Assembly (NCBI GenBank): GCA_003224085.1
Contig: QHYK01000095.1
Coordinates: forward strand, 1-64,000
Source: Acidobacteriota bacterium
GTDB lineage: Bacteria > Acidobacteriota > Terriglobia > Acidiferrales > UBA7541
Reading direction: 5' to 3'
DNA: 64,000 nt
A program made the translations under genes and the position numbers. Below, one piece after another: positions 16,113-58,597 of the stretch. The notes beneath the pieces are model-generated. The model worked only from the letters and a program-made list of their open reading frames with translations, did no database searches and was not told the origin of the DNA. Every line of letters begins with the position of its first letter. Position 1 is the first letter of the stretch.

Positions 16113-19100
16113 ATGAAAAAACGGACCTTGACGTTCCTCCTACTCACTCTGCTCTCCTCCCCCGTAGTCTTCGCCCAAAGTTATCGGGGCCAGATTCAGG
16201 GTCAGGTCACAGACCAAAGCGGTGCTGTCGTTGCGGGCGCGAATGTAACGCTGCGCAACGTCAACACCGGCATACAGACCACGCGGCCTTCGAGCAGTGC
16301 CGGAGTGTATCTCTTCGAGTTGCTCGATCCCGGCGTTTACACCATTACGATCGAGGCGGCAGGATTCCGCAAATTCATCCAAGAAAACATTATTCTTCAG
16401 GCCAGCAACACCATCACGGTGAATGCGACCCTTCGGCCCGGTGAAGTGCAGCAAAGCATCACGGTGACGGAAACTCCAGCGACTGTTCAGCTCACCACCA
16501 GCAGTCAGAACATCACTCTAAATTCCACCCTCGCAACCGAAACACCTCGCTACGACCGCAACCCGTTCAAGCTGACGCTGCTCGCTCCCGAGGCCATCAA
16601 TACGCGCGGCGAAATGTTGCCCTTCCTCTCGTGGTCTGCCAACAGCGTGGATTTGGGCGGAGGAACGAACCTGAAGAACGATATTCAGGTTGACGGCAGC
16701 CCGGTGGGGCTGGGCCACAAGTTTAGCTACCCTCCCAACATGGACGCTGTAGAGTCGGTGAACGTTTCCCAGAACAGTACGGACGCTGAATTTGGCCACA
16801 GCGCCGGTGGCGAGATTACCTTGACGACCAAGTCTGGCAGCAATGCGTGGCACGGCTCGACGTATTACTTGGGACGCTATCCCTGGCTGAACGCGATCGC
16901 CAACAGGACCACACTAGGCACCAATTCGACGCGCCAAAACATGATCGGGGGCACGCTGGGCAACCCCATCTTCAAAAACAAACTCTTCAACTTCGTGTCC
17001 ATCGAATATTGGAAAGTAGGAGTGCCAGGAAGCTTTGTGACGACTGTGCCCACGGCTGCAGAACGAAGCGGCGACTTCTCCCACACCTACAACGTCGATG
17101 GGAGCCTAAGGACGGTATACGACCCGTGGACCACCACCACGGATCCAAACACCGGTACCGTCACGCGCCAACCTTTTTCCGGGAACATTATTCCGGCCAA
17201 TCGCCTCGACCCCCTTGCCGTCCAGCTGATGAACGCGATGTGGGCCCCGAACAATCCTGGGGACAACATTACCGGCGTGAATAATTTTAAGAAGAGCTAC
17301 ACGGATGCCTGGAACTACTGGAACTGGTCTGACCGCGTGGATTACAACATCACTGATAAGTGGAAGTTATGGGGCCGTGCCAGCGGTTACCATACGACCG
17401 ACATCTATTCGAACCCGACGCCGAATAATTCCGACCTGTACGTGCCCACTGGCACCTACCGCACAGCGCAACAATATGCGGGGGATGTCGTTTGGACGGT
17501 GAATCCAAAAACGATCGTGGACTTTCAAGCCAGTTACCACAACGTGGTAGACGCCTATGTTTCCACTCCCATGCCAGCGCCGGGCTGGGCCTCGCTCTGG
17601 CCCAATAATTCTTGGTACGTGCCCTATCAGCAGGCTTCAACTTTCGTGCCCATCTACTTTCCGGATTTCAGTGTTGGCGGTAACACTTTCGGGGGACGCG
17701 GTTTCTACTGGAACCAGAGGCCTGAGGGCGAGGATTTTAGCGCCAAGTATTCTCATCAGTTGGGCTCGAGCTTCCTGAAGGCCGGTCTCCAGTGGCACCA
17801 TGCTTATGGCCCCGTCTACGTGTCAAACACCTCCGTTTTCAATTTTCCCTCGGACACCACCGCAAATTCGTACATAAGTCCAGATACCAAACATACTGGA
17901 GACCCGTTCGGCACCTTCCTGCTAGGCGCGCTCGACGGTTCTTCTGAGATGATCGGAGGGCCAGCTCCGGACCCGCACACCACCAGTTACGGCTTCTGGG
18001 TTCAGTACGATTGGCGAGTGAACAACAGGCTCACCCTGAACTTCGGTTTACGCGACGAGTACGAAAAACCCTGGTCTGATCCGAACCACACGCTTTCTCG
18101 CGGCCTAGACTTGTCTCAGCCTACGCCCGCAATGCAAGCGAACCCGCCGCAGATGCCCGCGCAGGCCCTGCAATTTGTGGGTAACAATTTCTATCGCTGG
18201 TACGGGATGTGGCAGTGGACCGACAACAACCATCCGGGAATGTGGGATCCGCCCCTCTTTGCGCTGGCGCCGCGTGCAGGTTTGGCCTTGCGCATCAATG
18301 ACAAAACGGCTTTCCGCTTCGGGTATGCGCGTTTTGTCATCCCGACCGAGTTCAATTTCACAGCGGCTCCGCTGCTTGGCTTCGAGGATATCAACTTCCT
18401 GGAACCTCCCTTCTACGGCATGACGAGTTATCAAAATACTGCGCCGCTGCTTCAGGGGGTGCCGCAGGAGACCATCTCGAATCCCTATCCGGCTAGCAAT
18501 CCCCTCGTGCCCATCTCAGGTACAGCCGCTGGACCGGACGTGGGACGAGGCAATCCGAGCGGCCTCCTTTGGTACCCGCACAATTTTCAGAAGGCCTGGA
18601 ATGACCGCTTCAATTTCAATTTCCAGCGCCAGTTGCCTGGGCAGATTCTGGCTTCCGCTACTTGGTTCATGAACCTTGGTCGTCAACACTACACGAGGGA
18701 ATTGAACGCCATTGACCCGCGCTTGCAAGAGCAGTATCAAACTGCGCTCAGCGTGACGGTTCCCAATCCTTTTCACAATTATCTAAATCCCATTGTATTC
18801 CCGGGGCCTTTGCGGAACCAACCCACCGTGTCTTTGGGCTCGCTGCTGGTACCCTATCCGCAGTACGGCCCGCTCTTCGAGATCGGCGATTGTTGCGCAC
18901 TCGAGCATTACAACCAAATCCAGATTCAGTTGCAGAAGCCTTTCAGCCGCGGGCTTAACTTCCTTTTTGGCTATGTCTATACGCGGGAGCGCCAGCAGAT
19001 TAACAACTTCAACGATGCCACTTACTATTTCAACCAATTCCAATGGCAGGACAGCAACCAGCCGCACCACCGCCTCAGCGCGGCAGGTACTTATGAATTT

Positions 19101-19607
19101 CCCTTTGGGCGAGGTCACCGCTTTCTGAACTCCTCTAGGGCCGATGCCATCGCGGGCGGATGGAGATTCACGCCTGTATGGCAATACATCTCCGGCGACT
19201 TTCCCCGGTTTGGGAATATGATCGTGTCCGGCAACCCTTGCATTTCAAACCCCACGCCGCAGCATTGGTTCAATACGGCCGTATTTCAACAGATACCTAA
19301 AGACACATACGTGCTGCGCCAGAATCCTTTGCAATTCTCGTGTTTGACCGGCCCCCATTTCTGGAATCTGGACGCCAGTTTGGCAAAAGAATTCCACATC
19401 ACCGAGCGATTCAACGGCCAGCTCAAGGTGACCGCTTACAATGCTCTCAACAATCTCAACCGAGGCGACCCCGACACGAATGTTAACTCCTCGACGTTCG
19501 GCGAAGCCCTGTATCAAGGCTCGCCAGGAGGCGCTTTCGGCGGGCAGGGGGCCTACGAATACGTCAGCGGCCGTCAGGTCGAGTTAGGATTCAAGATCTT
19601 TTGGTAA
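16113..19607 (+). CDS. Oar-type TonB-dependent receptor 2
   Basis: This 1164-residue receptor has a Sec signal (MKKRTLTFLLLTLLSSPVVF AQ), a carboxypeptidase-regulatory-like domain (QIQGQVTDQSGAVVAGANVT ... GVYLFELLDPGVYTITIEAA), a plug with FGHSAGGEITLTTKSGSNAW, and a barrel ending ELGFKIFW. The start ATG 16113 has GAGG six bases upstream; the frame is open 16 codons further up but without signal-peptide character. It is followed about 100 bases later by a CRTAC1-type propeller gene and an overlapping TPR gene, forming a three-gene unit. In Bacteroidota such receptors pair with SusD-like proteins; none is present here, so the CRTAC1 and TPR proteins could fill an accessory role. That is inference. 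Confidence 0.9.
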   Translation: MKKRTLTFLLLTLLSSPVVFAQSYRGQIQGQVTDQSGAVVAGANVTLRNVNTGIQTTRPSSSAGVYLFELLDPGVYTITIEAAGFRKFIQENIILQASNTITVNATLRPGEVQQSITVTETPATVQLTTSSQNITLNSTLATETPRYDRNPFKLTLLAPEAINTRGEMLPFLSWSANSVDLGGGTNLKNDIQVDGSPVGLGHKFSYPPNMDAVESVNVSQNSTDAEFGHSAGGEITLTTKSGSNAWHGSTYYLGRYPWLNAIANRTTLGTNSTRQNMIGGTLGNPIFKNKLFNFVSIEYWKVGVPGSFVTTVPTAAERSGDFSHTYNVDGSLRTVYDPWTTTTDPNTGTVTRQPFSGNIIPANRLDPLAVQLMNAMWAPNNPGDNITGVNNFKKSYTDAWNYWNWSDRVDYNITDKWKLWGRASGYHTTDIYSNPTPNNSDLYVPTGTYRTAQQYAGDVVWTVNPKTIVDFQASYHNVVDAYVSTPMPAPGWASLWPNNSWYVPYQQASTFVPIYFPDFSVGGNTFGGRGFYWNQRPEGEDFSAKYSHQLGSSFLKAGLQWHHAYGPVYVSNTSVFNFPSDTTANSYISPDTKHTGDPFGTFLLGALDGSSEMIGGPAPDPHTTSYGFWVQYDWRVNNRLTLNFGLRDEYEKPWSDPNHTLSRGLDLSQPTPAMQANPPQMPAQALQFVGNNFYRWYGMWQWTDNNHPGMWDPPLFALAPRAGLALRINDKTAFRFGYARFVIPTEFNFTAAPLLGFEDINFLEPPFYGMTSYQNTAPLLQGVPQETISNPYPASNPLVPISGTAAGPDVGRGNPSGLLWYPHNFQKAWNDRFNFNFQRQLPGQILASATWFMNLGRQHYTRELNAIDPRLQEQYQTALSVTVPNPFHNYLNPIVFPGPLRNQPTVSLGSLLVPYPQYGPLFEIGDCCALEHYNQIQIQLQKPFSRGLNFLFGYVYTRERQQINNFNDATYYFNQFQWQDSNQPHHRLSAAGTYEFPFGRGHRFLNSSRADAIAGGWRFTPVWQYISGDFPRFGNMIVSGNPCISNPTPQHWFNTAVFQQIPKDTYVLRQNPLQFSCLTGPHFWNLDASLAKEFHITERFNGQLKVTAYNALNNLNRGDPDTNVNSSTFGEALYQGSPGGAFGGQGAYEYVSGRQVELGFKIFW

Positions 19608-19706
19608 GCCCGCAGCGCCGTCGCCGTTTGCCCACGACATGAAAAATCGTCTGCTTTTTGTGTGAGAATCAATCTAGCAAGACGCCCAGCTCACGAGCAG
19701 TTACGG

Positions 19707-21461
19707 ATGGACAGTGTGGACAGGCGCAGCTTTTTGGGCTTGTTGGCTTGGCCAGTCCTTGGCGTTAGCGGTCAGCAAAGGGCGACGAGCAGCCAGGGAA
19801 TGTCATCTCGCGGCGTCCCACCGAGCCCCCGCGGTAAGCCTTCGGGGATTCCCTTCCATGCCCGCTTTACGGACATAGCCGATCGGGCCGGATTGAAAGA
19901 ACCTGTGGTGAGCGGCCACACGAACCGTGCCGATTACATCATTGAGTCCATGACCGGCGGCGCCGCGTTTTTCGACTACGACAACGATGGATGGCTCGAT
20001 GCTCTGATACTTTCAGGGTCCCGGCAAGACGATCCGCCGGCAACAGCAACATATCGCCTCTACAAGAATAACCGAGACGGCACTTTTTCCGATGTCACAG
20101 AAAAAGCAGGACTGTTCCACACAGGGTTCGCCTACGGCGTCACGGTGGGAGACTATAACAACGATGGCTTCGAAGACTTGTTCATCACTTATTGGGGCCA
20201 GAACGCGCTCTATCGCAACAACGGAAATGGAACTTTCACGGATGTCACGAAGGAAGCCGGGCTGCTCAGCGCCCAGCCGCGCTTCGGAACCGGCTGCGCG
20301 TTTCTTGATTACGACCGGGATGGCCACCTCGACCTTTTTGTATCAAACTACGTGAAATTCGACATTTCAGTGCCTCGTCCCGGGGAACCGGGCAGTTGCC
20401 ACTACCAAGGTGTCCCTGTGTTTTGTGGACCACGCGGACTGCCTTACGGGCACCACAGTCTCTATCACAACAATGGCGACGGCACCTTCACGGATGTCAC
20501 TGCTTCATCCGGCATCGGCAAAGCGGAGGGAGGCTACGGCCTGACGGTAGTCTCCGCCGATTTTGACAATGACGGTTGGCCCGATATCTATGTGGCCTGC
20601 GATTCCACGCCGAGTTTGCTGTTCCGCAACAATCATGATGGAACGTTCAGCGAACAGGGTCTCGAGCGGGGCGTGGCTCTCAGCAACGACGGGATGGAGC
20701 AGGCTGGCATGGGCGTGGCGGTCGGCGATTTCATGCTGAATGGTTGCCTCGACATCATCAAGACGCACTTTTCGGAAGATACATTGGGCGTATATCGGAA
20801 TGATGGCAGCGGTATCTTCTGGGACGTCTCGCGCAACGCGGGGTTAGCCGTCGAAACCCGCTACGTCGAATGGGGCGTCGGTCTCGTGGACCTCGACAAC
20901 GATGGCAAACCCGATATTTTCGCCGTTACGGGCGGCGTCTACCCCGAACTACGCGACGGCTACAAGACGCCTCGCGTCATTTTTCGCAACCTGGGCAAGG
21001 GGCAATTCGAGCAGGTGCTCGGCCAGGGGCCGGCTGTGGATGCCCCGCATGCCAGTCGTGGCTGTGCTTTCGGCGACTTCGATAACGACGGCGACGTGGA
21101 CATCCTCATTGTGAATCAGAATGAGCCGCCCTCGCTGCTTCGCAACGACGTGACGGGTGGCAACCACTGGATCAAAATCAAATTGGTCGGTACCAAGTCA
21201 AATCGCAGCGCCATTGGCGCTTGCGTTATAGCGAGGTACGGAGACAATGTACAAGCACAGGAGGTCTTGAGCCAGTCGTCGTACCTCTCCGCGAACGATA
21301 GCCGGCTGCACTTCGGGCTCGGCCCGGCGACCACAGTAAACCTCGAGATTCGCTGGCCGTCGGGGCAAAGCGAAAAATTGACCGCGGTCGCGGCCGATCA
21401 ACTCGTTTTCGTGACGGAGGGTTCGGGAATTACGGAAAAGCGGAAGCTGGCGGCATCATGA
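19707..21461 (+). CDS. Exported CRTAC1-family propeller (VCBS/FG-GAP, ASPIC/UnbV)
   Basis: This 584-residue protein starts at ATG 19707 with a twin-arginine leader (DRRSFLGLLAWPVLGVSG). At least seven FG-GAP/VCBS repeats follow, with calcium-binding-type loops such as [61 protein letters not shown] and FGDFDNDGDVDILIV, each paired with an [18 protein letters not shown] strand. The C-terminal 90 residues are an ASPIC/UnbV domain (GNHWIKIKLVG ... NLEIRWPSGQSEKL). Tat export implies folding in the cytoplasm before secretion. Its last bases overlap the TPR gene start (ATGA), so the two are translationally coupled. The role is probably ligand or surface binding; no catalytic site is visible. Confidence 0.9.
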   Translation: MDSVDRRSFLGLLAWPVLGVSGQQRATSSQGMSSRGVPPSPRGKPSGIPFHARFTDIADRAGLKEPVVSGHTNRADYIIESMTGGAAFFDYDNDGWLDALILSGSRQDDPPATATYRLYKNNRDGTFSDVTEKAGLFHTGFAYGVTVGDYNNDGFEDLFITYWGQNALYRNNGNGTFTDVTKEAGLLSAQPRFGTGCAFLDYDRDGHLDLFVSNYVKFDISVPRPGEPGSCHYQGVPVFCGPRGLPYGHHSLYHNNGDGTFTDVTASSGIGKAEGGYGLTVVSADFDNDGWPDIYVACDSTPSLLFRNNHDGTFSEQGLERGVALSNDGMEQAGMGVAVGDFMLNGCLDIIKTHFSEDTLGVYRNDGSGIFWDVSRNAGLAVETRYVEWGVGLVDLDNDGKPDIFAVTGGVYPELRDGYKTPRVIFRNLGKGQFEQVLGQGPAVDAPHASRGCAFGDFDNDGDVDILIVNQNEPPSLLRNDVTGGNHWIKIKLVGTKSNRSAIGACVIARYGDNVQAQEVLSQSSYLSANDSRLHFGLGPATTVNLEIRWPSGQSEKLTAVAADQLVFVTEGSGITEKRKLAAS

Positions 21462-22642
21462 TGCTGCGGGTCCTATCTTCACTGTTTTGCTCCTCGCTGC
21501 TTTGCGCTTCTCTGCTGTTTGCGCAGCAACCTCGGTTGGAACATGCCTGGGACTTGCTGGCTAAGGGCCAGCGCTCGGAAGCCGTTCATTTCCTGCACGA
21601 CTTGATCAAGGCCAATCCCCGCGATGCCAACGCGCATCTGCTGTTGGGAAGCGTGCTCATGGAGCAGGGAGAACGTTCCGAATCGATTGCCCAACTCACC
21701 GAGGCTGTTCGATTGCTTCCGAATTCCGCGCGGGCGCAGAATGCGCTCGGCGAGGCCTTCAGCAAGTTTGGTGATTTGGACGCCGCGCGCAAAGCGTTCG
21801 AAAAGGCTGCGGAGCTTGACCCGCGCTACGCGCCCGCGCAAGTGAACCTCGGCCGAGCGCTCGTCGAGTCCGGCCAGTTCTCGCAAGCGTCCCCCCACCT
21901 TGATCGTGCCATCCAGCTCCTGGGACAGCGCCCGGACGCGGCTTATCCGCACTATCTTCGCGCGAAAATATATAGCGAGGGCCGTCAAGTCGAAAGGGCC
22001 GCCGCGGAATTGCGGCGGGCCATATCGTTGCAGCCTGACTTCGCTGAGGCGTGGTCCGATCTCGGAAGCGCGCGAAAGATTTTGTTGGACGACGCCGGGG
22101 CGCTCGCGGCTTTTGAAAAAGCTGTGCGCTTTGCGCCCAATGACCCCGTTGCCCGAGAGCGCCTCGGTTCGGAACTTCTCAGCCAAGGGAACGCGCAAGA
22201 GGCCGTACCACATTTAGAAGAAGCTGTGCGTCTCGATGGGCAAAACCAAACGGCGCTGTATAACCTGCAACGCGCCCTCCTCATTGACGGTCATTCCGAA
22301 GAAGCCGCAACTATAAAGATGAAACTCACCGCATTGTTACGCGAAAAAGATCAAGCCGATCAGCGCGCCGTGTTGGCCATCCAACTGAACAATCAAGGCG
22401 CCGCCCTCGAGAAAGCCGGCAAACTGCCGGAGGCTCTTGAAAAGTATCAGACGGCGACGCAACTCGACCCGGATCACATTGGGATACGCTTAAACCTTGC
22501 GGCCGCCCTGCTTCGACTCGGTCAATGGAGCCAAGGCATCGCCGAATTGCGCGAGGTCTTGCGCCGCGACCCCGAGAACCCGGACGCAAAGAAAGCTCTA
22601 GATCAAGCCCTCGCCCAAGGGCCTTCCAAAGCTCCTTGGTAG
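21458..22642 (+). CDS. Exported TPR-repeat protein
   Basis: This 394-residue protein has a Sec signal (LRVLSSLFCSSLLCASLLF AQ) and then about ten tetratricopeptide repeats, with the W/L-G-Y-A-F-A-P pattern clear in AHLLLGSVLMEQGERSES, ARAQNALGEAFSKFGDLDAA and AQVNLGRALVESGQFSQA. A final repeat block near 300-390 follows a short charged linker. TPR proteins are scaffolds for protein assembly; here a periplasmic location is implied. The ATG at 21458 overlaps the CRTAC1 stop by four bases. Co-translation with the CRTAC1 propeller and proximity to the receptor suggest it helps assemble or hold that complex. Confidence 0.9.
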   Translation: MMLRVLSSLFCSSLLCASLLFAQQPRLEHAWDLLAKGQRSEAVHFLHDLIKANPRDANAHLLLGSVLMEQGERSESIAQLTEAVRLLPNSARAQNALGEAFSKFGDLDAARKAFEKAAELDPRYAPAQVNLGRALVESGQFSQASPHLDRAIQLLGQRPDAAYPHYLRAKIYSEGRQVERAAAELRRAISLQPDFAEAWSDLGSARKILLDDAGALAAFEKAVRFAPNDPVARERLGSELLSQGNAQEAVPHLEEAVRLDGQNQTALYNLQRALLIDGHSEEAATIKMKLTALLREKDQADQRAVLAIQLNNQGAALEKAGKLPEALEKYQTATQLDPDHIGIRLNLAAALLRLGQWSQGIAELREVLRRDPENPDAKKALDQALAQGPSKAPW

Positions 22643-23014
22643 ACGGCGCTAATCACTATAGAGAAAGAGCGGTGGCTTGCGCTGGTCGCAATAAGGACGG
22701 ATCGGGCATTCTTATAGGTGCGGTTCTTGTTCCACCAAATGCCACCGCTGCAACTGCTGTCCCAGCCGGTGGTCATGTCCGCAAAGATCCGTTCCGCCAT
22801 GTTCAGGTACTGAGCACTGTTCGTTTCGTCGTAGGCCGCGATCCAAGCGAGCGCCCACCAGCCCTCATCGTCGTAATAGTTGTTGAGGAATCCTCCGCCG
22901 CCGCCCCTTCTGCAACAAGAGCTCGAACTCTGTCGAGACACGAGCGCGCCGAAACTCATAGGGAAAAGCCGGCGGGCCCCTCACTCACAAGGGAGCGTCC
23001 GCGGCTCCACTGCT
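22643..23014. other. Intergenic region carrying only a glycosidase fragment
   Basis: Apart from the GH76-like remnant at 22705-22890 on the minus strand, I see no gene, promoter or repeat. Confidence 0.5.
22705..22890 (-). pseudogene. Fragment of a GH76-type alpha-1,6-mannanase
   Basis: Sixty-two codons read FLNNYYDDEGWWALAWIAAY, then LNMAERIFADMTTGWDSSC, GGIWWNKNRTYKNA. This matches the central motif region of glycoside hydrolase family 76 endo-alpha-1,6-mannanases, including the neighbouring acidic pair (YYDDEGWW) that is catalytic in that family. Coding resemblance stops abruptly on both sides: upstream is a Ser/Cys/Gly-rich non-homologous stretch and downstream the expected continuation is lost. 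It is a remnant of roughly one sixth of a normal gene, and shows that the lineage once had a mannanase here. Confidence 0.75.
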
Positions 23015-23422
23015 TCAGAGTGGATGTGGTGGCGCATGAATTGGAATCACCTCCCGCCGATTCCGCCGATAGAAGCGAAAGTCGCTGTCCACGGTGATAA
23101 CAACGTGCCGGGGATAGAGTTCGCTCATTCGTATCAAACAGAGATCGGCCAGATCTGGACTGCGGTCACCGTAGCGCCGGGCGAGTTCTGCCAGCGGCGG
23201 GATGTTGCGATTGCAGTCAAAGGCCAAGCGCAGCATCTCATCCTGCAGCAGAGCGAGGACGTAGGAACTGGATTCAAGTTGAAAGGCAGCTTCAGCCAAA
23301 ACCGCTTCGCATGTCAGCAAGGGTTCGGTGATTCGCTTTGCCACATCGACGGCCCAAACATGGTGCTGGTCGTTCCGTCTGGCGAATGCCACGATGAACC
23401 CGGTATCTGCAATGCCTCTCAT
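23015..23422 (-). CDS. VapC-type PIN-domain toxin
   Basis: This 135-residue PIN-domain protein has the four acidic positions expected of the RNase active site: Asp6 (RGIADTGF), a Glu in CEAVLAEAAF, Asp in SPDLADLCLIRMSE and Asp in ITVDSDFRFY. VapC toxins are Mg-dependent ribonucleases that usually cut tRNA or rRNA. ATG 23422 overlaps the stop of the ribbon-helix-helix gene by four bases, the usual antitoxin-first layout. The C-terminus ends REVIPIHAPPHPL, of normal length. The active site looks intact. Confidence 0.88.
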   Translation of the reverse strand: MRGIADTGFIVAFARRNDQHHVWAVDVAKRITEPLLTCEAVLAEAAFQLESSSYVLALLQDEMLRLAFDCNRNIPPLAELARRYGDRSPDLADLCLIRMSELYPRHVVITVDSDFRFYRRNRREVIPIHAPPHPL

Positions 23423-23634
23423 GAGCGGGAAAATCCCTTGCGAGAAGAAACATCCGGCGGCCCGCCGGTGATCGCTCCCGCATGGCGAAGGAAAGGCTGT
23501 TTTCCTCCCTTGGCCTTGGCAGTTTCCAGTTGCTCACGAATGAGGCGCCCGACGGGGATACCCGTGCGGCGCGAAGTCTCTTTCAGCCAATCAACAAGCT
23601 CATCTGTAAGACGAATTGTGAGTGTATGACTCAT
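23419..23634 (-). CDS. Ribbon-helix-helix antitoxin partner of the PIN toxin
   Basis: The protein has 71 residues from ATG 23634 (MSHTLTIRLTDELVDWLKE); a TTG start at 23661 would add nine residues and is less likely. The N-terminal strand-helix-helix pattern TLTIRLTDELVDWLKETSRR, followed by GIPVGRLIREQLETAKAK, is a CopG/Arc-type DNA-binding fold. The C-terminal tail (GGKQPFLRHAGAITGGPPDV) is the disordered part that would occupy the toxin active site. It probably represses its own promoter together with the toxin. TACAAT lies about ten bases upstream of the ATG and could be a -10 box giving a very short leader. Confidence 0.85.
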   Translation of the reverse strand: MSHTLTIRLTDELVDWLKETSRRTGIPVGRLIREQLETAKAKGGKQPFLRHAGAITGGPPDVSSRKGFSRS

Positions 23635-23722
23635 ATGTGAGGATTGTAACACGTGCGACAAAATTTGAAAAAGAGCTGCTCTGGTTCAAACTGTTTGGTC
23701 GGCCCGGTTGACTCTTTTCTCG

Positions 23723-23865
23723 GGGTTATCTGCCATCATGTTCCTACTGTTGCTGGTTCTCTTCTGGGAGCACAATCAGTCCGCCTACAAGCGTCGGTAT
23801 TCTCAGTGGGAAGGCTCGTTCCTCTGCCAACGCTGTGGCACTTTAACGGAGCAGGAATTTTAGCG
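23723..23865 (+). repeat. Dispersed gene-tail repeat, copy 1
   Basis: This is one of three copies (others at 25166-25287 and 40961-41110). All keep one frame: a hydrophobic stretch (MFLLLLVLFW in this copy, from ATG 23738), then HNQSAYKRRYSQWEGSFLCQ, RCGTLTEQEF and a TAG stop (23861-23863). That is the C-terminal tail of a small membrane protein with a CxxC zinc-ribbon half. Copies 1 and 3 differ by several synonymous third-position changes, so they derive from real genes. No ribosome binding site or plausible full N-terminus is present, so I treat it as a repeat and not as a functional gene. Similarity ends just after the stop codon. Confidence 0.8.
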
Positions 23866-24058
23866 CTCCGAAATCAGCAACCTGGGCAAGCCTCATTACT
23901 ACCGCTCGGTGGACGTCAATTTATCGTGGCGCCCTCGATTACGTTATCCGAGCCCGAAGAGGAATCCAGCCCACGACCTGCGCCGCCCCACTCGCGATAT
24001 CTCCATTTCCTCGATCACCGGATGGCAGCCCCTCGATCTAATCAGTCCCTGTTTGCGC

Positions 24059-24094
24059 TTGATCGGGGCGAGGGTGTTGTATATAATTGTTATA
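24059..24094 (+). promoter_or_regulatory. Promoter and overlapping operator of the BrnTA module
   Basis: TTGATC at 24059-24064 and a perfect TATAAT at 24082-24087 are separated by 17 bases, which is optimal. The -10 box is also the left arm of the inverted repeat TATAATTGTTATA (24082-24094). The toxin ATG is at 24098, so the message would be leaderless or nearly so. A palindrome over the -10 box suits autorepression by the BrnA antitoxin, as known for BrnTA systems. Confidence 0.65.
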
Positions 24095-24097
24095 CAC

Positions 24098-24412
24098 ATG
24101 AAAGCCTGGATGGAATGCACCGGGTTTGAATGGGACGACGGCAACAGCGCTAAGAACTGGGAAAAACATGGAGTTGCAGATTTTGAGGCTGAAGAGATTT
24201 TCTTCAATCGCCCATTCATCGTGCGGCACGATGCCGCCCATTCGTCGGACGAGGAAAACCGCTGGCGTGCTTTCGGTCGGACCGACAAGGGCCGGTACTT
24301 ATTCGTTGCCTTCACCGTACGACGCACGCTAATCCGAGTGATCTCAGCGCGCGTGATGACACGCCGAGAGCGGAGGTTTTATGAGAGCTACGAAAAGAGT
24401 GAAGAAGCTTAA
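24098..24412 (+). CDS. brnT: BrnT-type ribonuclease toxin
   Basis: This 104-residue protein carries the BrnT pattern: FEWDDGNSAKNWEKHGVADF at the N-terminus, EAEEIFFNRPFIV, then ENRWRAFGRTDKGRYLFVAF, RTLIRVISARVMTRRERRFY. BrnT is a RelE-fold ribonuclease toxin; the conserved basic and aromatic residues of the C-terminal strand are present. The longer in-frame upstream extension has no coding character; ATG 24098 directly follows the promoter. The gene overlaps the antitoxin gene by 32 bases. Toxin-first order is normal for this family. Confidence 0.9.
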   Translation: MKAWMECTGFEWDDGNSAKNWEKHGVADFEAEEIFFNRPFIVRHDAAHSSDEENRWRAFGRTDKGRYLFVAFTVRRTLIRVISARVMTRRERRFYESYEKSEEA

Positions 24413-24668
24413 ACCGCTTCCGGTTTTCAAGTCGGAGGAAGAAGAAAGAGAGTTTTGGGCTACCCATGATTCCATGGACTATGTCGATTGGTCGAAGGCC
24501 GAACGTGTTGTATTTCCTAACCTAAAGCCCACCGCTAGAACGATTTCGTTGCGGCTGCCGGAGACTATGATTGGAAATTTGAAACTGCTTGCCAACAAAC
24601 GCGATGTTCCGTACCAATCGCTCCTCAAGACATTTCTCGCCGACCGGCTAAAACAGGAAATGCGTTGA
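24381..24668 (+). CDS. brnA: BrnA-type antitoxin
   Basis: This 95-residue protein has an N-terminal toxin-binding part (VKKLKPLPVFKSEEEEREFW, THDSMDYVDW) and a C-terminal ribbon-helix-helix-type segment (RTISLRLPETMIGNLKLLAN, VPYQSLLKTFLADRL). ATG 24381 has GGAGG four to five bases upstream, inside the toxin gene. BrnA neutralises BrnT and represses the shared promoter; the 24082-24094 palindrome is a good candidate target. Confidence 0.88.
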   Translation: MRATKRVKKLKPLPVFKSEEEEREFWATHDSMDYVDWSKAERVVFPNLKPTARTISLRLPETMIGNLKLLANKRDVPYQSLLKTFLADRLKQEMR

Positions 24669-25165
24669 CGTAGTCCTCGACGACCCACGATTGAGCTATG
24701 GCGCGAACCACCGTTCGTCGCCGAGATGCCCGCGGAAATGGCAGACGTAGAGTACTTTAAGTCTAGTTTTCCGAAGAGCACTTCTGGCTGGCCTTCTCCG
24801 ATGGCTTCCGATTGGGTGGCGAGTTCTCTCGGCCCCGATGCTCGTGGGATAGGATACATGCTGCGCGTAGGAAACTTGAGTATCCCACTCGTGAGCGGTT
24901 TGCTCGGCGCTTTCTTACGTTGCTGAAACAGATGCCTTAACCGAGGAAGAGGATTTTCAAGGCATGGGGCTATTCGTCCGATGTGTATTCTTGGGGTTAC
25001 CGGTTGGAAGAGGCAGCGCGAGAGACGCCGAACGCTGCCAGGTTTCGCGCTCCCCCCAGCCTGTCCGTGCGGATGAGGCCAATCTCCCAACCTGGAGGTG
25101 GATAGTTCCCTCTTAATTAAAGCGCAGCTGTTCGAATTTCTACGTTTTTCAAGTGCGTGGTGACA
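24669..25165. other. Intergenic region with no recognised gene
   Basis: Short frames on both strands, including one at 24726-24926, show no recognisable domain or ribosome binding site. The next repeat copy follows at 25166. The stretch may be decayed coding sequence. Confidence 0.4.
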
Positions 25166-25287
25166 CTATTGCTGCTGGTTCTCTTCCAGAACCACAATCA
25201 GTCCGCCTACAAGCGTCGGTATTCTCAGTGGGAAGGCTCGTTCCTCTGCCAACGCTGTGGCACTTTAACGGAACAAGAATTTTAGCG
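25166..25287 (+). repeat. Dispersed gene-tail repeat, copy 2
   Basis: From CTATTGCTGCTGG to the TAG at 25283-25285 this copy is nearly identical to copy 1 at 23723-23865, with two silent changes in the last codons (GAACAAGAA against GAGCAGGAA) and a changed FQNHNQ in place of FWEHNQ. It starts later than the other copies, lacking about 15 codons of the hydrophobic part and any ATG. The close identity suggests recent duplication within this island. Confidence 0.8.
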
Positions 25288-25441
25288 CCCCAGCTTCTCT
25301 CCAAAAAAACAGCCATCCTGCAGCTCCCCGCATATATGGATCTGAACATCAAGAACAAACTCAGTGTTGTAATACAAATCGGCCGTTTCGGGCTATATGA
25401 CGATTTAGCCTGCGAGCCACTAGCCACCAGCTACTCGTCAC

Positions 25442-25501
25442 TTAAAACTGAAGTTTGTGTGCCAGCTGAAACGTCCGCGCTCCTCCAATGACCGAGCCAT
25501 G
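25442..25501 (-). pseudogene. 3' scrap of a TonB-dependent receptor gene
   Basis: On the minus strand the codons read GSVIGGARTFQLAHKLQF then TAA at 25444-25442. The pattern Ala-Arg-x-x-Gln-x-Ala-x-x-Leu-x-Phe is the terminal strand of Oar-type receptors (compare RMQFAVRILW and RQAQFALKLMF elsewhere in this window). Nothing recognisable remains upstream. It is a short remnant, so the call rests on one motif. Confidence 0.45.
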
Positions 25502-25510
25502 GCACTCCCG

Positions 25511-25519
25511 TGCTATACT
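25511..25519 (+). promoter_or_regulatory. Extended -10 element ahead of the DUF433 gene
   Basis: TGCTATACT combines a TG extension with a TATACT hexamer (25514-25519), about 22 bases before ATG 25541. No good -35 is seen, as is common for extended -10 promoters. Confidence 0.35.
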
Positions 25520-25540
25520 CGCTCCAGATGGAGACTAAGC

Positions 25541-25760
25541 ATGGCTTCGGTCGGTGATGTCATCGTCAAGAACCCGAATATCCTTCACGGCACACCCGTA
25601 TTCCGGGGCACGCGGGTCCCCTTTCAGGCTCTCCTGGACTACCTCAAAGCAGGAGACTCTCTGGACGAAATTCCTCGAGGATTTTCCCTCGGTCAGCCGC
25701 CAAGACGCCATCACCGCGCTTGAGGACGCCAAGGCCGCACTTGTCGGCCAGCTTGGATGA
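25541..25760 (+). pseudogene. DUF433 antitoxin gene with one frameshift
   Basis: ATG 25541 has GGAG seven bases upstream. The frame reads MASVGDVIVKNPNILHGTPV, FRGTRVPFQALLDYLKAGDS, LDE, a DUF433 antitoxin core (winged-helix, HGxPxFxGTRVP signature). It then goes out of frame and the expected remainder, FLEDFPSVSRQDAITALEDA, continues in the adjacent frame to the stop at 25758-25760. One extra A in GAAATTC at about 25668-25673 explains it. The shifted frame overlaps the next start by four bases, as in intact pairs. A single sequencing error could also cause this. Confidence 0.8.
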
Positions 25761-25972
25761 AGATCCTTCTTGACGAATGTGTTCCCCAGCGTCTGCGGAA
25801 TCACTTGCCCGGTCATGAGTGCCAATCCGCTCGATACGCTGGTTTCGGAGGACTCGAGAACGGCGATCTCCTGACAGCCGCAGAAGCCGCCAAATTCGAT
25901 GTGTTGCTCACTGTGGATCGCGGCTTTGAATACGAGCAGAATTTAGGCGGGCGACAAATCGCTATCCTTATT
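25757..25972 (+). pseudogene. DUF5615 PIN-like toxin, C-terminus lost
   Basis: From ATG 25757 the protein reads MKILLDECVPQRLRNHLPGH, a PIN-like N-terminus with Asp7 and Glu8, then GLENGDLLTAAEAAKFDVLL, TVDRGFEYEQNLGGRQIAIL. After about residue 72 family resemblance stops, and the frame runs on to 26461 through unrelated sequence antisense to the DUF4185 gene. Intact members are about 110-120 residues. The missing C-terminal strands would normally complete the fold, so the toxin is probably inactive, matching the frameshift in its antitoxin. Confidence 0.75.
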
Positions 25973-26123
25973 GGATGTAGCGCCTACACCCAGCCTGCTT
26001 CCCTGCGACAACCCGGAACAACCGCTCAGCAACAGAAACAAAGTGGGCGGGAGCCCTGCTCATCGCCATGCCGGATCCCGAGTCGGTTTCGATCACATAC
26101 AGGTTGGGGCTGCCTCGGATGGT

Positions 26124-27302
26124 TCATTTCGGCAGGTCCAGAATCACCACGCGCGGGCGATAAATATTCATATTGGCAATGGTTTTCGCGAGAACCATCG
26201 AATTGCACGCATAAGTCAATGCGATCTTGCTTTCCGAGAATTCGGTGTGTTCCTTTACCGCATAACAAAAGGTGTCTTTGTCGTAGCCCGAGCGGTCGCG
26301 CTTCATTTCTGGGAACTCGTAGATCGTGCGCGGCGCGGACCATGGCCCGACCGGAGAGTCCGCGGTCCTCGCAACTGCGCGCGGCGAAGGAAATTCAGGA
26401 CCGGTTGAAATCGCCAACCACTTCTTCATCGGAGGGTGGTAGCGAACCGACATTTCGCTGATGGGTTGGTCGATCACCTTCTTGGCGTCCGGGCCCGCCA
26501 GTCCCACCGTCCAGCGATTGTCGTTTCTGAGATACTCCCAGCTGCCAGACGGGTTGGCCATCTTGCCTTGTGGCGTTCGCATGACGGCCATAAATCCCTT
26601 GCCTTCTCCCTCACTGACTTGCGTATACCAGATCAGGTATTTTCCTTCAGGCACGAGCGAAACACCGGCCCAAAGCCGCGCGTCGGTAAGGTCCTGGACG
26701 GCGATCTCCCAACTGTCGGGTGATGCCTGGGCGTTGCCGATTGTCGCTAGCTTCGTACCAACAATTTCGAATCCGAAGGCGTCGCCGGGGCCCGCTCCGG
26801 GCTTATTGCGCACTGCCAGCAGACAAATAGAAAGCCTTGCATCCTGCAGGAATCCATCGAGCGGCCAGTACCATAGCTCGTCTGTCCCCGTGTCAAAAAA
26901 CGAGCGCGGCTTGAGATCGGTTGCCTTCTGCCAGAAGTACTGCATCTCGCAAGGTGAACCCGTTTTGCACCGGGAAAGGCCGATGCTGTTCCGAACCATG
27001 GTTTTCGATTCGCTGCGCAGTTTCGTTCCACGATCTCCCACGAATGTGTCACCAAAAAACCAAAGGCTTGTCGTGGGCGTAAGCGGGAGCGAATACGCAT
27101 CGTCGGCGCCCAACCAGCCGTCGGTGTAGCTGAATTCAGGCAGAGGGCGAAGTAAACCGGCATCGTGGGCAGCTGTCTTGGAAGACGAAGCTGGCATCCA
27201 GCCCAAAAGTACCGACAGGGAGATAAGCAGAAGTGTGAACTGTTTCACGGCATAGGCATTTCGCGCCGTACGTTCACTCGGGCACATTCGCCAGGAGCTC
27301 AT
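26124..27302 (-). CDS. Exported DUF4185-domain protein
   Basis: This predicts up to 392 residues with a Sec signal (VKQFTLLLISLSVLLGWMPA). GTG 27248 starts that signal directly and would give 374 residues; ATG 27302 adds a charged lead. The body has the DUF4185 features LGADDAYSLPLTPTTSLWFF, GDTFVG near the N-terminus, DELWYWPLDGF, AGVSLVPEGKYLIWYTQV, and a late WLAISTGPEFPSPRAVARTA. DUF4185 proteins are five-bladed-propeller-like and are found near carbohydrate-active enzymes; a glycan-binding or hydrolase role is inferred. It is divergent from the glycosidase gene, so the intervening region may control both. Confidence 0.8.
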   Translation of the reverse strand: MSSWRMCPSERTARNAYAVKQFTLLLISLSVLLGWMPASSSKTAAHDAGLLRPLPEFSYTDGWLGADDAYSLPLTPTTSLWFFGDTFVGDRGTKLRSESKTMVRNSIGLSRCKTGSPCEMQYFWQKATDLKPRSFFDTGTDELWYWPLDGFLQDARLSICLLAVRNKPGAGPGDAFGFEIVGTKLATIGNAQASPDSWEIAVQDLTDARLWAGVSLVPEGKYLIWYTQVSEGEGKGFMAVMRTPQGKMANPSGSWEYLRNDNRWTVGLAGPDAKKVIDQPISEMSVRYHPPMKKWLAISTGPEFPSPRAVARTADSPVGPWSAPRTIYEFPEMKRDRSGYDKDTFCYAVKEHTEFSESKIALTYACNSMVLAKTIANMNIYRPRVVILDLPK

Positions 27303-29952: not shown

Positions 29953-30897
29953 TTGAGGGCTTTGGCGATTGATCTGGGCGGCACCCACGCCACGTGCGGC
30001 ATCGTCGAAGACCGGACGATCTTGGCGCAAGAAGCCATTGCTGCGGATTGTGTCGAAGGCCTCGCGGCGTTGCTGCCCTCTATCCAGGATACTTTGCGCA
30101 AGCTTGCAAAAGAAAACGGGCTCTCCCTCAAGAGCTGCGAGGGTGTGGTCGCGGGATTCCCTGGGCTTGTGGATACCCGCGCGGCACGAGTGCTCTCGAC
30201 AAACGCAAAGTATGAGGATGCTCCAGGACTCGATCTCGCCGCTTGGGGGCGCCAGGCTCTCGGTCTCCCGCTCACGATTGAGAACGACGCGCGCATGGCA
30301 TTGCTCGGGGAAACCTACGCCGGAGCCGCCCGGGGTTTCACCGAGGTCGTCATGATAACGCTGGGCACGGGTATAGGCGGCGTGGCGATGATCGAAGGAA
30401 AACTGCTTCGGGGAAAGCACGCGCAGGCTGGCTGTTTAGGAGGCCATATCCCTGTTCTCTTTACTGGACGCCGCTGCACCTGCGGTGCGATTGGATGCGC
30501 GGAAGCGGAAGCGGCAGGCTGGTCGCTTCCGCTGATTCTAAAAGAATGGCCGGGGGCCTCCAGGAGCGCGCTGTCGAAATACCAAAAAGTCGGATTCAAG
30601 GAGCTGTTTAAAGAGGCGGCAGCCGGTGATTCCGTGGCGCTGGCGGTTCGAGATCGATGCCTAGGCGTCTGGTGTGCTGCTGCGATCGCCCTCGTGCATG
30701 CCTACGACCCCGAGATCATTGTGCTTGGAGGAGGAGTGATGAAAAGCGCCCTGAGTATTATCCCGATCCTCCAATCTCATGTTGAAAAATACGCGTGGAC
30801 ACCCTGGGGCAAAGTGCAAGTCCGGGCTGCTGAACTGGGTAACAACGCAGCTCTTTTAGGGGCCGTCCCGTTGCTCTCGGAAAAGCGGCGCAGCTAA
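29953..30897 (+). CDS. ROK-family sugar kinase
   Basis: This 314-residue protein starts at TTG 29953, with GAGGAGA about seven bases upstream. The N-terminal phosphate loop is AIDLGGTHATCG; the sugar and catalytic region contains IENDARMALLGE; the second ATP motif is MITLGTGIGGVAM; and the ROK zinc site is complete (GCLGGHI His plus CTCGAIGCAE cysteines). A C-terminal IIVLGGGVMKS closes the nucleotide site. ROK kinases phosphorylate glucose, mannose, fructose, N-acetylglucosamine or related sugars. A glucokinase- or mannokinase-like role is likely because mannose- and glucose-phosphate isomerases follow in the locus. It is cytoplasmic. Confidence 0.9.
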   Translation: MRALAIDLGGTHATCGIVEDRTILAQEAIAADCVEGLAALLPSIQDTLRKLAKENGLSLKSCEGVVAGFPGLVDTRAARVLSTNAKYEDAPGLDLAAWGRQALGLPLTIENDARMALLGETYAGAARGFTEVVMITLGTGIGGVAMIEGKLLRGKHAQAGCLGGHIPVLFTGRRCTCGAIGCAEAEAAGWSLPLILKEWPGASRSALSKYQKVGFKELFKEAAAGDSVALAVRDRCLGVWCAAAIALVHAYDPEIIVLGGGVMKSALSIIPILQSHVEKYAWTPWGKVQVRAAELGNNAALLGAVPLLSEKRRS

Positions 30898-54977: not shown

Positions 54978-57900
54978 ATGTCGTGGCGAGCATGCTGCTC
55001 CGTGTGCGCTTTTTTCCTTGTTGCGGCCATTACTGGTGCGCAAGAATTTCGCGCAACTCTCACAGGGCGGGTCACAGATCCGCAGAATCTGACCATCGCA
55101 GAAGCAACCGTTCAAGTCCGCAACGTGAGCACGGGCGAGGTTTCGTCCGCGAACACAGACTCGCGCGGAAACTTTTCCATTCCCTTTCTTCGCCCGGCTA
55201 CTTACACGGTGACCGTCGCGCACTCCGGTTTCAGACAGTTCACTCAGCAAGGCGTCACTTTAGAGGTCGCCCAAACCGCCTTTCTTCCTATTCAACTTCA
55301 GATCGGGTCCGAGACCCAGTCGGTGATTGTTACGGCGGAAGCTCCTTTGCTGGAAACGGCAACTGCCGATCGCGGCGGCGTGGTTGACACTCAGCGAGTT
55401 TCCGAACTGCCCTTGAATGCGCGCAATCCCTTCATGCTCGGCGCCATGATGTCCGGCGTGACTTTTCGCGGCTCCGCCATTTGGCAGCGGCCCTTTGACA
55501 ACGGCGCTATCGCCGAATGGTCCATCAACGGCAGCCGCCAGCGCCAGAATGAGTTCCTATTGGACGGCGCCCCCAACAACGGTCAGGCCGGCGGCAACAA
55601 CGTGGCGTATGTGCCTATTGTGGATGCCGTTCAAGAGTTCAAGATGCAGAGCAACACCTATGACGCCCAGTATGGCCACACCGCGGGCGGCATCATGAAC
55701 GTGGTCCTGAAAAGCGGCGGCAACAAGTTTCACGGATCGGCTTGGGAGTTCATGCGTCGCACATGGCTCGATGCCAACACTTTCCAGAATAATTCCGTGG
55801 GCGCACCTAGGGCGGTGCATTACTTGGACCAATACGGAGGGCAGGTGGATGGTCCAGTTCTTCTTCCCAAACTATACAACGGGCACGACAAGACCTTCTT
55901 TCTCTTCAGCATTGAGAATTACAGAGAGGGTACGCCTTCCCCGCTGTTGCTGTCAGTCCCGGCGCCGGAATTTTTGAATGGTGACTTCAGCAAACTTGTG
56001 GACGCCAACGGCAAGCCCAAGCCGAACACCACGACCCCCAATTCGGCCTACAGCCAGTACAACCTCTCCATACCGGGCTATTTCGCAAAGGACAAGTTCT
56101 ACAACTACATTGCCAGAGTGGATGAAATCATCGGCCAGAAGCACCGCGTGTTTGGACACTACGCTCAGAACAGCCGCACCGAAGATCGCAACGACAATGG
56201 TGTTTTCAGCGGCCCTGGGCAGGGAGGCCAGCAGCCTTTCCAGCGCTTGAATTGGGCCGCCACAGTGGATTGGGTGGGGACATTCTCTCCGACCTTCATC
56301 GGCAACGTGCGGGTTTCCTTTAACCGTTTCATTGAACAGGGTTTTGGTGCGGGAGACGTTGGCTTCGACCTCACAACGCTGGGCTTCCCGGCCTCCACGA
56401 TCAGCCAACTGCCCGGGGGCAAGTTCTTTGGCCGCTATGAATTCGACGGGTACAGCTACCTGGGCCGCTATCGCGACGTGAATATCACGAACAATTACGG
56501 AATCAATCCGAATATCACCAAAATTTGGAAATCGCACTCGTTTCACACCGGCTTGGACTTTCGGCGTATCTACTACATCCTGAATAGCACAGGTAACATC
56601 TGGCGTTTCAAGGCGTGGAAGAACTACACACAGAAAACTTGGAACCAAGGCGACGCGCTTAGTGGAAGCAGCATCGCGAGCTTCTTGCTTGGTGTTCCCT
56701 CGGAAGGCGGATCGGACTACCCCCTGTTTCCTTTCTTCCGGCAGTGGTATTACGCACCCTTTGTTCAGGACGATTGGAAAGTGAGTTCGCGGCTCACCTT
56801 GAATCTCGGCTTGCGATGGGACTTTACCCTTGCTCCGGACGAGAAATATGGCAGGCTGAACTACCGCTTCGATCCCAACGCACAAGCCGATCCTTCCCAG
56901 TTTCCTGAACTCGCCAATTACAAGGGAGGCCTGACTTTTGCCGGTGTTGGCGGTAACCCGAGCAAAGCGGCAAACACGAACTACTGGAACGTTCAACCGA
57001 GAATCGGTGCTGCCTACCAGTTGAGGCGTCACTTGGTGATGCGAGGCGGCTGGGCGCGCTATTTCGCCAATCCCAGCAACGACTGGCAAAAGACAACGGG
57101 ATTCAGCACCAGCACACCGTTGGTCTCGAGTAACGACGGCGGACGGACACCCATCGCTAATCTTCTATCGAATCCCTTTCCGAACGGTATCCTGACGCCA
57201 ACTGGCTCGAACCGGGGTGCGGCCACCTTCGTGGGCCGTGATTTTTCATGGTTTAATCCAGACTTCAAAACGCCTTCGGCGGATGAGTTCTCTTTCGGTT
57301 TTCAAGTGGAGTTCTCACCCTCTTCCATGCTCGAAGCCTCCTATGTGGGCAGCCGCGGGCATAACATCCAGACCGTACGCTCGTACAATATTCCCAGCCT
57401 GGACCTCCGCCGTCAGTGCAACCTCCTGGAAGGCGGGAATCATTCGTATTGCGACGCTAGACTGCCGAATCCGTTCTATCAGCAGCCAGCGTTCCTAGGA
57501 ACTTCTTTCTATACTTCGTCGACTCTTTCCCGCTTTCAGCTCTCGCGGCCGTTTCCCCAGTTCAGCGGAGATCTGCAGGAGCAGGGTTTGAATACCGGTG
57601 CGACCTGGTATAACTCGCTGCAAGTGGATTACAACGTTCGGTTGCGCAGAGGCCTGAATCTCCTGGCCGACTATACCTTCTCAAAGCTGGTCGAGCGCTG
57701 GGGATACAACGATCCTTACCGCGGCATCATGCAGGAAGGGCTTTATTATAACGACCGGCCTCATATGCTGAAGGTGACCACTGTTTACGAACTTCCGTTC
57801 GGCAGGGGCCACTGGATTGGCGGCAACGTCCATGGATTCCTCAATCGGTTGATTGGAGGGTGGGAAACGACCACCTTCCTAACTGCGCAGTCTGGCGAAC

Positions 57901-58385: not shown

Positions 58386-58597
58386 AGCTGAGAATTGATC
58401 CCGATTCGATGTCGCTTCGGAGTGCGCCGGGTCGCCGTTCTTTGGCATCACGAAACAATAGGCGGTGTAACGCATCTCGCTCCAGGCAAGTTTCGGCAGT
58501 GGGGGATTGCCGCTCCGCCGGCTGGATGAGGGCGTTCACACTTGACTCGAGAAATGCCATAATAATGTCGTCTTTTTGAGCACTGTCATGCAGTTGA

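Follow-up and report, generated by a model that had tools for sequence, protein, structure and literature searches.

A receptor–CRTAC1–TPR gene triad as a candidate SusD-less, TonB-dependent uptake unit in an acidobacterial genome

What brings together an Oar-type TonB-dependent receptor, a CRTAC1-type propeller and an exported tetratricopeptide repeat (TPR) protein in a bacterium with no match to the SusD_RagB family? The question is raised by a stretch of 64,000 nucleotides from the genome of a soil bacterium of the Acidobacteriota (contig QHYK01000095.1 of assembly GCA_003224085.1, which totals 6.80 Mb in 159 contigs and is 97% complete), referred to here as the window. The three genes follow each other on the forward strand at 16113–22642, and a receptor–propeller pair lies at 54978–60370; Pfam (PF25183, PF13620, PF13517, PF07593 and TPR families) confirmed the coordinates and gene identities given for both units in a first-pass annotation of the window. 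Our results indicate a real and recurrent grouping, the general kind of which (TonB-dependent and similar to polysaccharide utilization loci [PULs]) is known but which apparently represents an undescribed variant. Searches of open-licence PMC papers listed none that describes receptor–CRTAC1 linkage. We consider it an even bet that the triad is a TonB-dependent, PUL-like uptake unit without SusD, with the CRTAC1 and TPR proteins as accessories and, most likely, a glycan fragment as the ligand.

The triad and its predicted products

The triad comprises the following genes:

16113–19607, + strand: Oar-type TonB-dependent receptor (Sec leader; CarboxypepD_reg, PF13620; OMP_b-brl_4 barrel, PF25183, E = 3.7e-128)
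19662–21461, + strand: CRTAC1-type seven-bladed propeller with a C-terminal ASPIC/UnbV domain (Tat-like leader; PF13517, PF07593)
21458–22642, + strand: exported TPR protein (TPR Pfam families; Sec-type leader)

The propeller gene may start at GTG 19662 or, better, at ATG 19707, which puts the Tat-like leader, MDSVDRRSFLGLL, directly at the N-terminus of the protein, and the ATG of the TPR gene at 21458 overlaps the propeller stop (21461) by 4 bases. Both propeller families score above the Pfam cut-offs (PF13517, 170.7 bits; PF07593, 70 bits), and the protein, a calcium-type propeller related to the cartilage protein CRTAC1 of vertebrates, contains six DxDxDG-type motifs. Its predicted model (predicted local distance difference test [pLDDT] score of 91.8) is most similar to murine CRTAC1 (9etn; Z = 40.3, compared to 30.5 for the next structure), with 456 residues aligned at a root mean square deviation of 2.4; the match spans residues 64–588, and the ASPIC/UnbV region was matched as well. 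The identity to the vertebrate protein is, however, 23%, and the likeness implies no receptor or TPR partner. The receptor model (pLDDT 74.5) matches TonB-dependent receptors, with Z scores of 28–34 for the 50 entries listed (top, 33.6), including the plugged barrels of PirA, BtuB, Cir and FusA at 31–34; in the Pfam scan, the Plug domain did not reach significance at E 0.001.

Tat-like leaders on both window propellers and a TatC encoded in the genome agree with the Tat export proposed in the first-pass annotation; the folding with its metal in the cytoplasm, which the annotation read from this leader, is at most conceivable. No lipobox was recognized in either propeller leader (by motif and by eye), and no canonical lipobox was seen by eye in the leader of the TPR protein. 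The combination of a Tat leader and no lipobox points to soluble propellers, periplasmic or secreted. The reported absence of SusD also held for SusD_RagB (PF07980), which had 0 matches in the assembly, with a Bacteroides control detected and other SusD families not searched. Promoter-like sites showed no excess (3 versus 3.1 in shuffles), and terminator-like sites numbered 12 versus 8.2 in shuffles (standard deviation 2.7).

Adjacency and conservation

Adjacency was counted in the source genome and three genomes of the same genus, with 88 ASPIC matches, fragments included, except for the short fragment rows of one match list; simple in-house scripts were used to call genes, to class leaders and to label receptors and TPR proteins. 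In two genomes, part of the receptor candidates were scored (65 of 129 and 57 of 116), which makes the receptor counts there minimum values; the chance expectation was therefore calculated from the numbers of candidates. The adjacency on which the first-pass annotation had staked the association is enriched over chance: 11 of the 88 ASPIC matches have a receptor in an adjacent slot on the same strand, whereas chance would give 1.75 even at the largest receptor counts (P = 2.4e-6). The source genome, with 31 ASPIC matches and at least 65 receptor barrel matches, contributes 6/31 (P = 1.2e-4) and the other three 0/13, 1/17 (P = 0.25) and 4/27 (P = 3e-3). According to gene calls, 8 of the 31 source-genome matches directly adjoin a receptor on one strand, and 2 more are separated from it by one TPR gene. 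The propeller precedes the receptor in 9 of the 11 cases judged by coordinates, whereas gene calls place the receptor first in 5 of the 10 source-genome units.

A local control was provided by 79 external loci, which are the best of at least 583 relatives of one propeller rather than a random sample and may omit records very near the window's genome. Receptors account for 27 of 174 direct propeller neighbours in these loci versus 16 of 275 genes at least four genes away (P = 7e-4), and TPR genes for 51/174 versus 6/275 (P = 2e-17). Within the source genome, a TPR gene lies within two genes of 12 of 14 propeller-linked receptors versus 15 of 56 others (P = 9e-5), or 9/11 versus 8/36 (P = 6e-4) when only complete neighbourhoods are considered, one split receptor (at C144) being counted twice. 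Based on the adjacency and TPR counts, we regard the triad as real and the propeller–TPR bond as its firmest; the TPR gene, which had been taken as optional, is the strongest neighbour of the propeller.

Long frames with both ASPIC and TPR are present at C116 and C117. Similar fusions considered at C157 and C5 were rejected under a propeller profile cleaned of TPR repeats, which also removed four source-genome propeller labels as TPR-only proteins; ortholog conservation, leader classes, distance pairs and TPR clustering used labels from the earlier profile containing TPR repeats, and rows labelled TPR were excluded from the distance-pair test and its tree. Near propellers, BLAST groups L109 11783–13000 and 29 other TPR-type proteins, in 27 loci, into one cluster, and the proteins examined from it (L109, L033) have in common an N-terminal motif like DDPNFTVAGVTDW. 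The split receptor at C144 (L043 9807–14273) consists of two tandem frames of 371 and 1077 amino acids behind the propeller, which makes it a receptor that is either split or duplicated in part.

The second unit of the window consists of two genes:

54978–58385, + strand: second Oar-type receptor (PF25183, PF13620)
58598–60370, + strand: second CRTAC1 propeller (PF13517, PF07593; Tat-like leader with ARRQFL; 212 bases behind the receptor)

The two units had been described as the same architecture occurring twice. Both indeed run from receptor to propeller, but they are distant paralogues and not recent copies (propellers 42% and receptors 29% identical), and the receptor-first order is the rarer one by coordinates (2/11). 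No TPR gene lies within two genes of the second pair, and nothing stood out as RNA structure between its receptor and propeller (z = 0.38). At C90 63979–70174 (L054 12980–19175), which extends beyond the window, an Oar-type receptor directly precedes a TPR protein, at least 887 amino acids long, at the contig end; a third receptor–propeller pair considered just past the window was rejected, leaving receptor and TPR only under the clean propeller profile.

The nearest relatives of the window propeller belong to Bryobacteraceae, Bryobacterales or Acidobacteria records. All four of the nearest relatives fetched (L055, L056, L058 and L059) retain the triad, with identities of 67–73% for the propeller, 53–62% for the receptor and 51–61% for the TPR protein; the receptor of L059 is on the opposite strand, behind the TPR gene, and that of L058 is truncated where the contig ends. 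In L060, which comes next in relatedness, the only receptor is a distant one (24–30%). Among the five nearest kin of the second propeller (four source-genome paralogues and one external protein), none is near a receptor more than 27% identical to the second receptor of the window, and three have some receptor within two genes.

Receptor linkage clusters on the trees of all loci, with 31 label changes on the propeller tree versus 39.6 in shuffles and 22 versus 32.2 on the receptor tree (0 of 200 shuffles as low). The source genome alone gave no such signal (propeller tree, 8 versus 9.5, 43 of 200 shuffles as low; receptor tree, 9 versus 10.4), and a single clade of receptor-linked propellers was rejected, such propellers being scattered on the tree. 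Counted for any relative, receptors are retained in 19 of 31 cases versus 39 of 99 for other genes (P = 0.027). We read this as receptor–propeller pairs being inherited together for a time and later exchanged. Receptor linkage of 30/69 Tat versus 9/43 Sec or lipoprotein-flagged propellers (P = 0.016) is a weak raw association, for which 34 of 146 rows were unclassed and dropped and two set to Tat by hand; we rejected the idea that a Tat leader marks propellers linked to receptors, the association being gone in independent pairs and insignificant in the source genome (P = 0.19). All classable acidobacterial propellers have Tat or Sec leaders, apart from four lipoprotein flags which look false by eye, with 55 propellers unclassed.

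Sugar genes around the units and the closest known systems

Neighbours of receptor-linked propellers, lone propellers and lone receptors (the latter from the source genome, L134–L176) were compared for the first 25 Pfam families of each class, the scans covering 103 of 127, 104 of 156 and 110 of 130 proteins, respectively. Peripla_BP_4 (LacI-like or sugar-binding) was found in 7/103 neighbours of receptor-linked and 2/104 neighbours of lone propellers (P = 0.08). The former also include an arabinofuranosidase C-terminal domain (4/103) and glycoside hydrolase (GH) family GH127 (3/103), both of which fall outside the top 25 families of the other two classes, where single members are possible. 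Among neighbours of lone receptors, the commonest matches are instead to amidohydrolase, GFO/IDH/MocA and xylose-isomerase-like families (4–5/110 each), perhaps reflecting a different diet. Both GH127 genes and 3 of the 5 GH51 genes of the source genome lie at two receptor–propeller units, C136, with the order GH51, propeller, receptor, TPR, GH51, and C144.

The window triad has a single candidate of this kind, 3.5 kb away, and a possible further gene beyond it:

26124–27287, − strand: DUF4185/GH183-like protein with a hydrophobic leader, possible linked enzyme (PF13810, E = 1.6e-14)
29953–30897, + strand: ROK-family sugar kinase or regulator, possible linked gene 7 kb downstream (PF00480, E = 1.1e-47)

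The DUF4185/GH183-like gene, one of two in the genome, is the next called gene downstream of the triad, on the opposite strand, and its product matches solved endo-D-arabinanases (phmmer, E = 6.7e-5). Since no relative was found in any other fetched locus, triad orthologues included, its link to the triad is only suggestive. With the ROK-family protein, none of the NCBIfam models matched reached its cut-off. The 3.5 kb behind the triad (22643–26123) contain no gene called by our simple script; by eye, frames at 23909 and 25757 resemble what we take to be BrnT-type and PIN-like toxin remnants. According to excerpts of a published study, the DUF4185/GH183-like and DUF2961/GH172 families include D-arabinan enzymes (PMC10115798).

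Similar units occur in named organisms, for which gene order is given as annotated and the plasmid gene tables are incomplete. Plasmid pACPOL3 of Acidisarcina polymorpha carries the three genes in the window's order within a sugar-related stretch (GH172, receptor, CRTAC1, TPR, DUF2961, LacI, fucP, tagaturonate epimerase), and pACPOL4 carries TPR and CRTAC1 genes with GH27 and no receptor among the genes listed for the stretch. In Granulicella tundricola, pACIX902 encodes LacI, an alginate-lyase family protein, GH88, TPR, a multihaem cytochrome, receptor, CRTAC1, an esterase, GH30 and GH28, and pACIX901 has glucosidases and GH88 in the vicinity of a receptor, a TPR gene and two CRTAC1 genes. 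Beyond the phylum, a CRTAC1 relative of 1091 amino acids follows SusC–SusD beside a beta-L-arabinofuranosidase gene in Hymenobacter volaticus, and Gemmatirosa kalamazoonensis (unannotated, with frames called here) has the order TonB barrel, SusD, CRTAC1, CRTAC1, SusC, SusD, amylase. Unlike the window copies, these relatives have lipobox-like leaders by motif, that of Hymenobacter lying upstream of the annotated start. CRTAC1 does not follow SusC–SusD universally, because no SusC–SusD is among the genes listed beside the CRTAC1 gene of Spirosoma oryzicola. Propeller relatives were also seen on plasmids of Phaeobacter, Streptomyces and Halocatena marina; taking Streptomyces to be a Gram-positive genus and H. 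marina an archaeon, the CRTAC1 family thus reaches organisms without an outer membrane.

The SusC–SusD PULs of Bacteroidota share with the triad a CarboxypepD_reg receptor with the TonB-receptor fold, an accessory protein encoded by the next gene, glycosidases and sugar regulators near several relatives of the window unit, and, in Hymenobacter and Gemmatirosa, CRTAC1 itself. They differ in that the source genome lacks SusD_RagB, the window propellers lack a lipobox, and a TPR protein is added. The Sus-like uptake suggested by the first-pass annotation is backed by the sugar genes around some of the loci and by the CRTAC1 relatives directly behind SusC–SusD in two records from other phyla; the propeller as a surface substitute for SusD is not supported, given its Tat leader without lipobox. 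BtuB–BtuG, which mediates B12 uptake in Bacteroides, likewise combines a TonB-dependent transporter with a seven-bladed propeller, as described in excerpts of PMC10404256, but BtuG is a surface lipoprotein, whereas the window propeller has a Tat leader, FG-GAP blades and an ASPIC/UnbV domain. Within the phylum, ASPIC/UnbV, TonB-plug and CnaB-type paralogue groups were reported in Solibacter usitatus, where, in the portion of the text consulted, the groups are given separately and no linkage is noted (PMC3174227).

Alternative explanations and the proposed mechanism

Several observations weigh against an uptake unit for glycans. Two of the four genomes (0/13 and 1/17) show no adjacency enrichment on their own, so that the signal rests on the other two, and 77 of the 88 ASPIC matches have no scored receptor in an adjacent same-strand slot. 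The seed search that found glycosidases among 14/176 neighbours of receptor-linked propellers, 8/233 of lone propellers (P = 0.04) and 2/190 of lone receptors (P = 0.001) drew its GH51 seed from the test set itself, although the independent GH127 seed alone gave 5/176 versus 0/423 (P = 0.002); LacI alone was insignificant (4/176 versus 1/190, P = 0.16). Both the families and the 9 kb radius were chosen after seeing the neighbours in the count that places 3 of 8 loci (by contig) of four arabinofuranosidase-type families near a unit (P = 1.2e-3), or 2 of 4 for GH51 and GH127 only (P = 5e-3), and DUF2961/GH172 was rejected as a genome-wide partner, with 0/2 near a unit. No glycosidase was found beside the triad orthologues, either by the seed search or among the Pfam families of six neighbours, which is a further difference from SusC–SusD PULs; the neighbours of the L056 triad are amidohydrolase, aminotransferase and MFS genes. 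Multihaem c-type cytochromes (5–24 CxxCH), some with TPR repeats, are located one to three genes from some CRTAC1 propellers, making a second, redox-linked role of the family possible:

L031 11394–13145 (C157), L039 1320–3623 (C124) and L044 2711–5572 (C119), source genome: multihaem cytochrome near propeller
L066, L067, L129 and L131, further loci: multihaem cytochrome near propeller

Finally, receptor and propeller distances are uncorrelated in 13 source-genome pairs (r = −0.05, P = 0.65), and, counted pairwise, retention beside related propellers is hardly better for receptors than for other genes (38/860 versus 98/2509). Lock-and-key co-diversification at depth (mirror-tree) was accordingly rejected; over all loci, r was 0.16 (P = 0.004) for 28 same-strand pairs and 0.03 (P = 0.28) for 18 opposite-strand pairs. 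The receptor and propeller had been taken for a fixed pair, which these distances do not support, nor do the source-genome paralogues of the second propeller, each of which has a different receptor or none.

The most serious rival is that the CRTAC1–TPR pair is a periplasmic module with its own job, such as redox or envelope assembly, and that receptors are neighbours through loose clustering of paralogue-rich surface genes. The far stronger association with TPR than with receptors, the lack of a receptor neighbour at most ASPIC matches, the ASPIC–TPR frames at C116 and C117, the cytochromes, the uncorrelated distances and, from excerpts of PMC12758564, CRTAC1 genes reported among hydrazine-synthase-like genes are all consistent with this explanation. 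We nevertheless consider it rather unlikely, as receptor adjacency exceeds chance with the local control too, the triad is kept in the nearest relatives, the family follows SusC–SusD in records of two other phyla, and glycosidases occur more often beside receptor-linked propellers than beside lone ones and, in the source genome, are concentrated at receptor–propeller units.

The receptor could alternatively serve in secretion of the propeller and not in uptake. Oar of Myxococcus, a TonB-dependent transporter, presumably shares the CarboxypepD_reg–plug–barrel make-up of the window receptors, both of which carry PF13620, and a Tat-like leader would deliver a folded propeller to the periplasm. 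In excerpts of PMC6434023, Oar is described with an N-terminal extension and plug and is needed to secrete a periplasmic protein, the protease PopC; these excerpts mention no CRTAC1 or TPR gene. PopC, however, has no signal peptide (PMC6434023), propellers are not one-to-one with receptors and their distances are uncorrelated, the context is uptake-like, and the SusC–SusD proteins encoded next to the relatives from other phyla are members of importer families, which together make export improbable. It is equally doubtful that the propeller caps the receptor from outside and replaces SusD, as suggested by the BtuG lid (PMC10404256, in part) and by the lipobox-like leaders of the Hymenobacter and Gemmatirosa relatives next to SusC–SusD, because the classable acidobacterial propellers are Tat or Sec proteins and receptor partners are exchanged.

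Under the favoured explanation, a TonB-dependent uptake unit without SusD, the receptor would bring a ligand, most likely a glycan fragment, across the outer membrane. The CRTAC1 propeller would be exported folded through Tat, without a lipid anchor, and would bind or hold the ligand close to the receptor, with the periplasmic side a likelier site than the surface; the periplasm is favoured on account of the Tat leader and the missing anchor. The co-translated TPR protein may dock the propeller to a partner. The propeller–TPR module would be the steadier unit, recruited by different receptors; where it is accompanied by enzymes, these are often arabinofuranosidases.

More tentatively, and with less than even confidence, ASPIC/UnbV propellers may take part generally, and so far unrecognized, in TonB-dependent glycan uptake across several phyla. 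In Bacteroidota and Gemmatimonadota, the propeller would be a lipoprotein encoded beside SusC–SusD; SusD-less Acidobacteriota would have a soluble propeller exported folded by Tat, which works together with a TPR adaptor and interchangeable Oar-type receptors, often for arabinofuranosyl glycans. Acidobacteriota are abundant in many soils, and how polymers are captured is a question for a genome with at least 65 receptor matches and no SusD_RagB. If the proposal is true, the CRTAC1–TPR accessory pair would offer a testable answer, give the bacterial ASPIC/UnbV family its first role and hint at where the vertebrate CRTAC1 fold came from.

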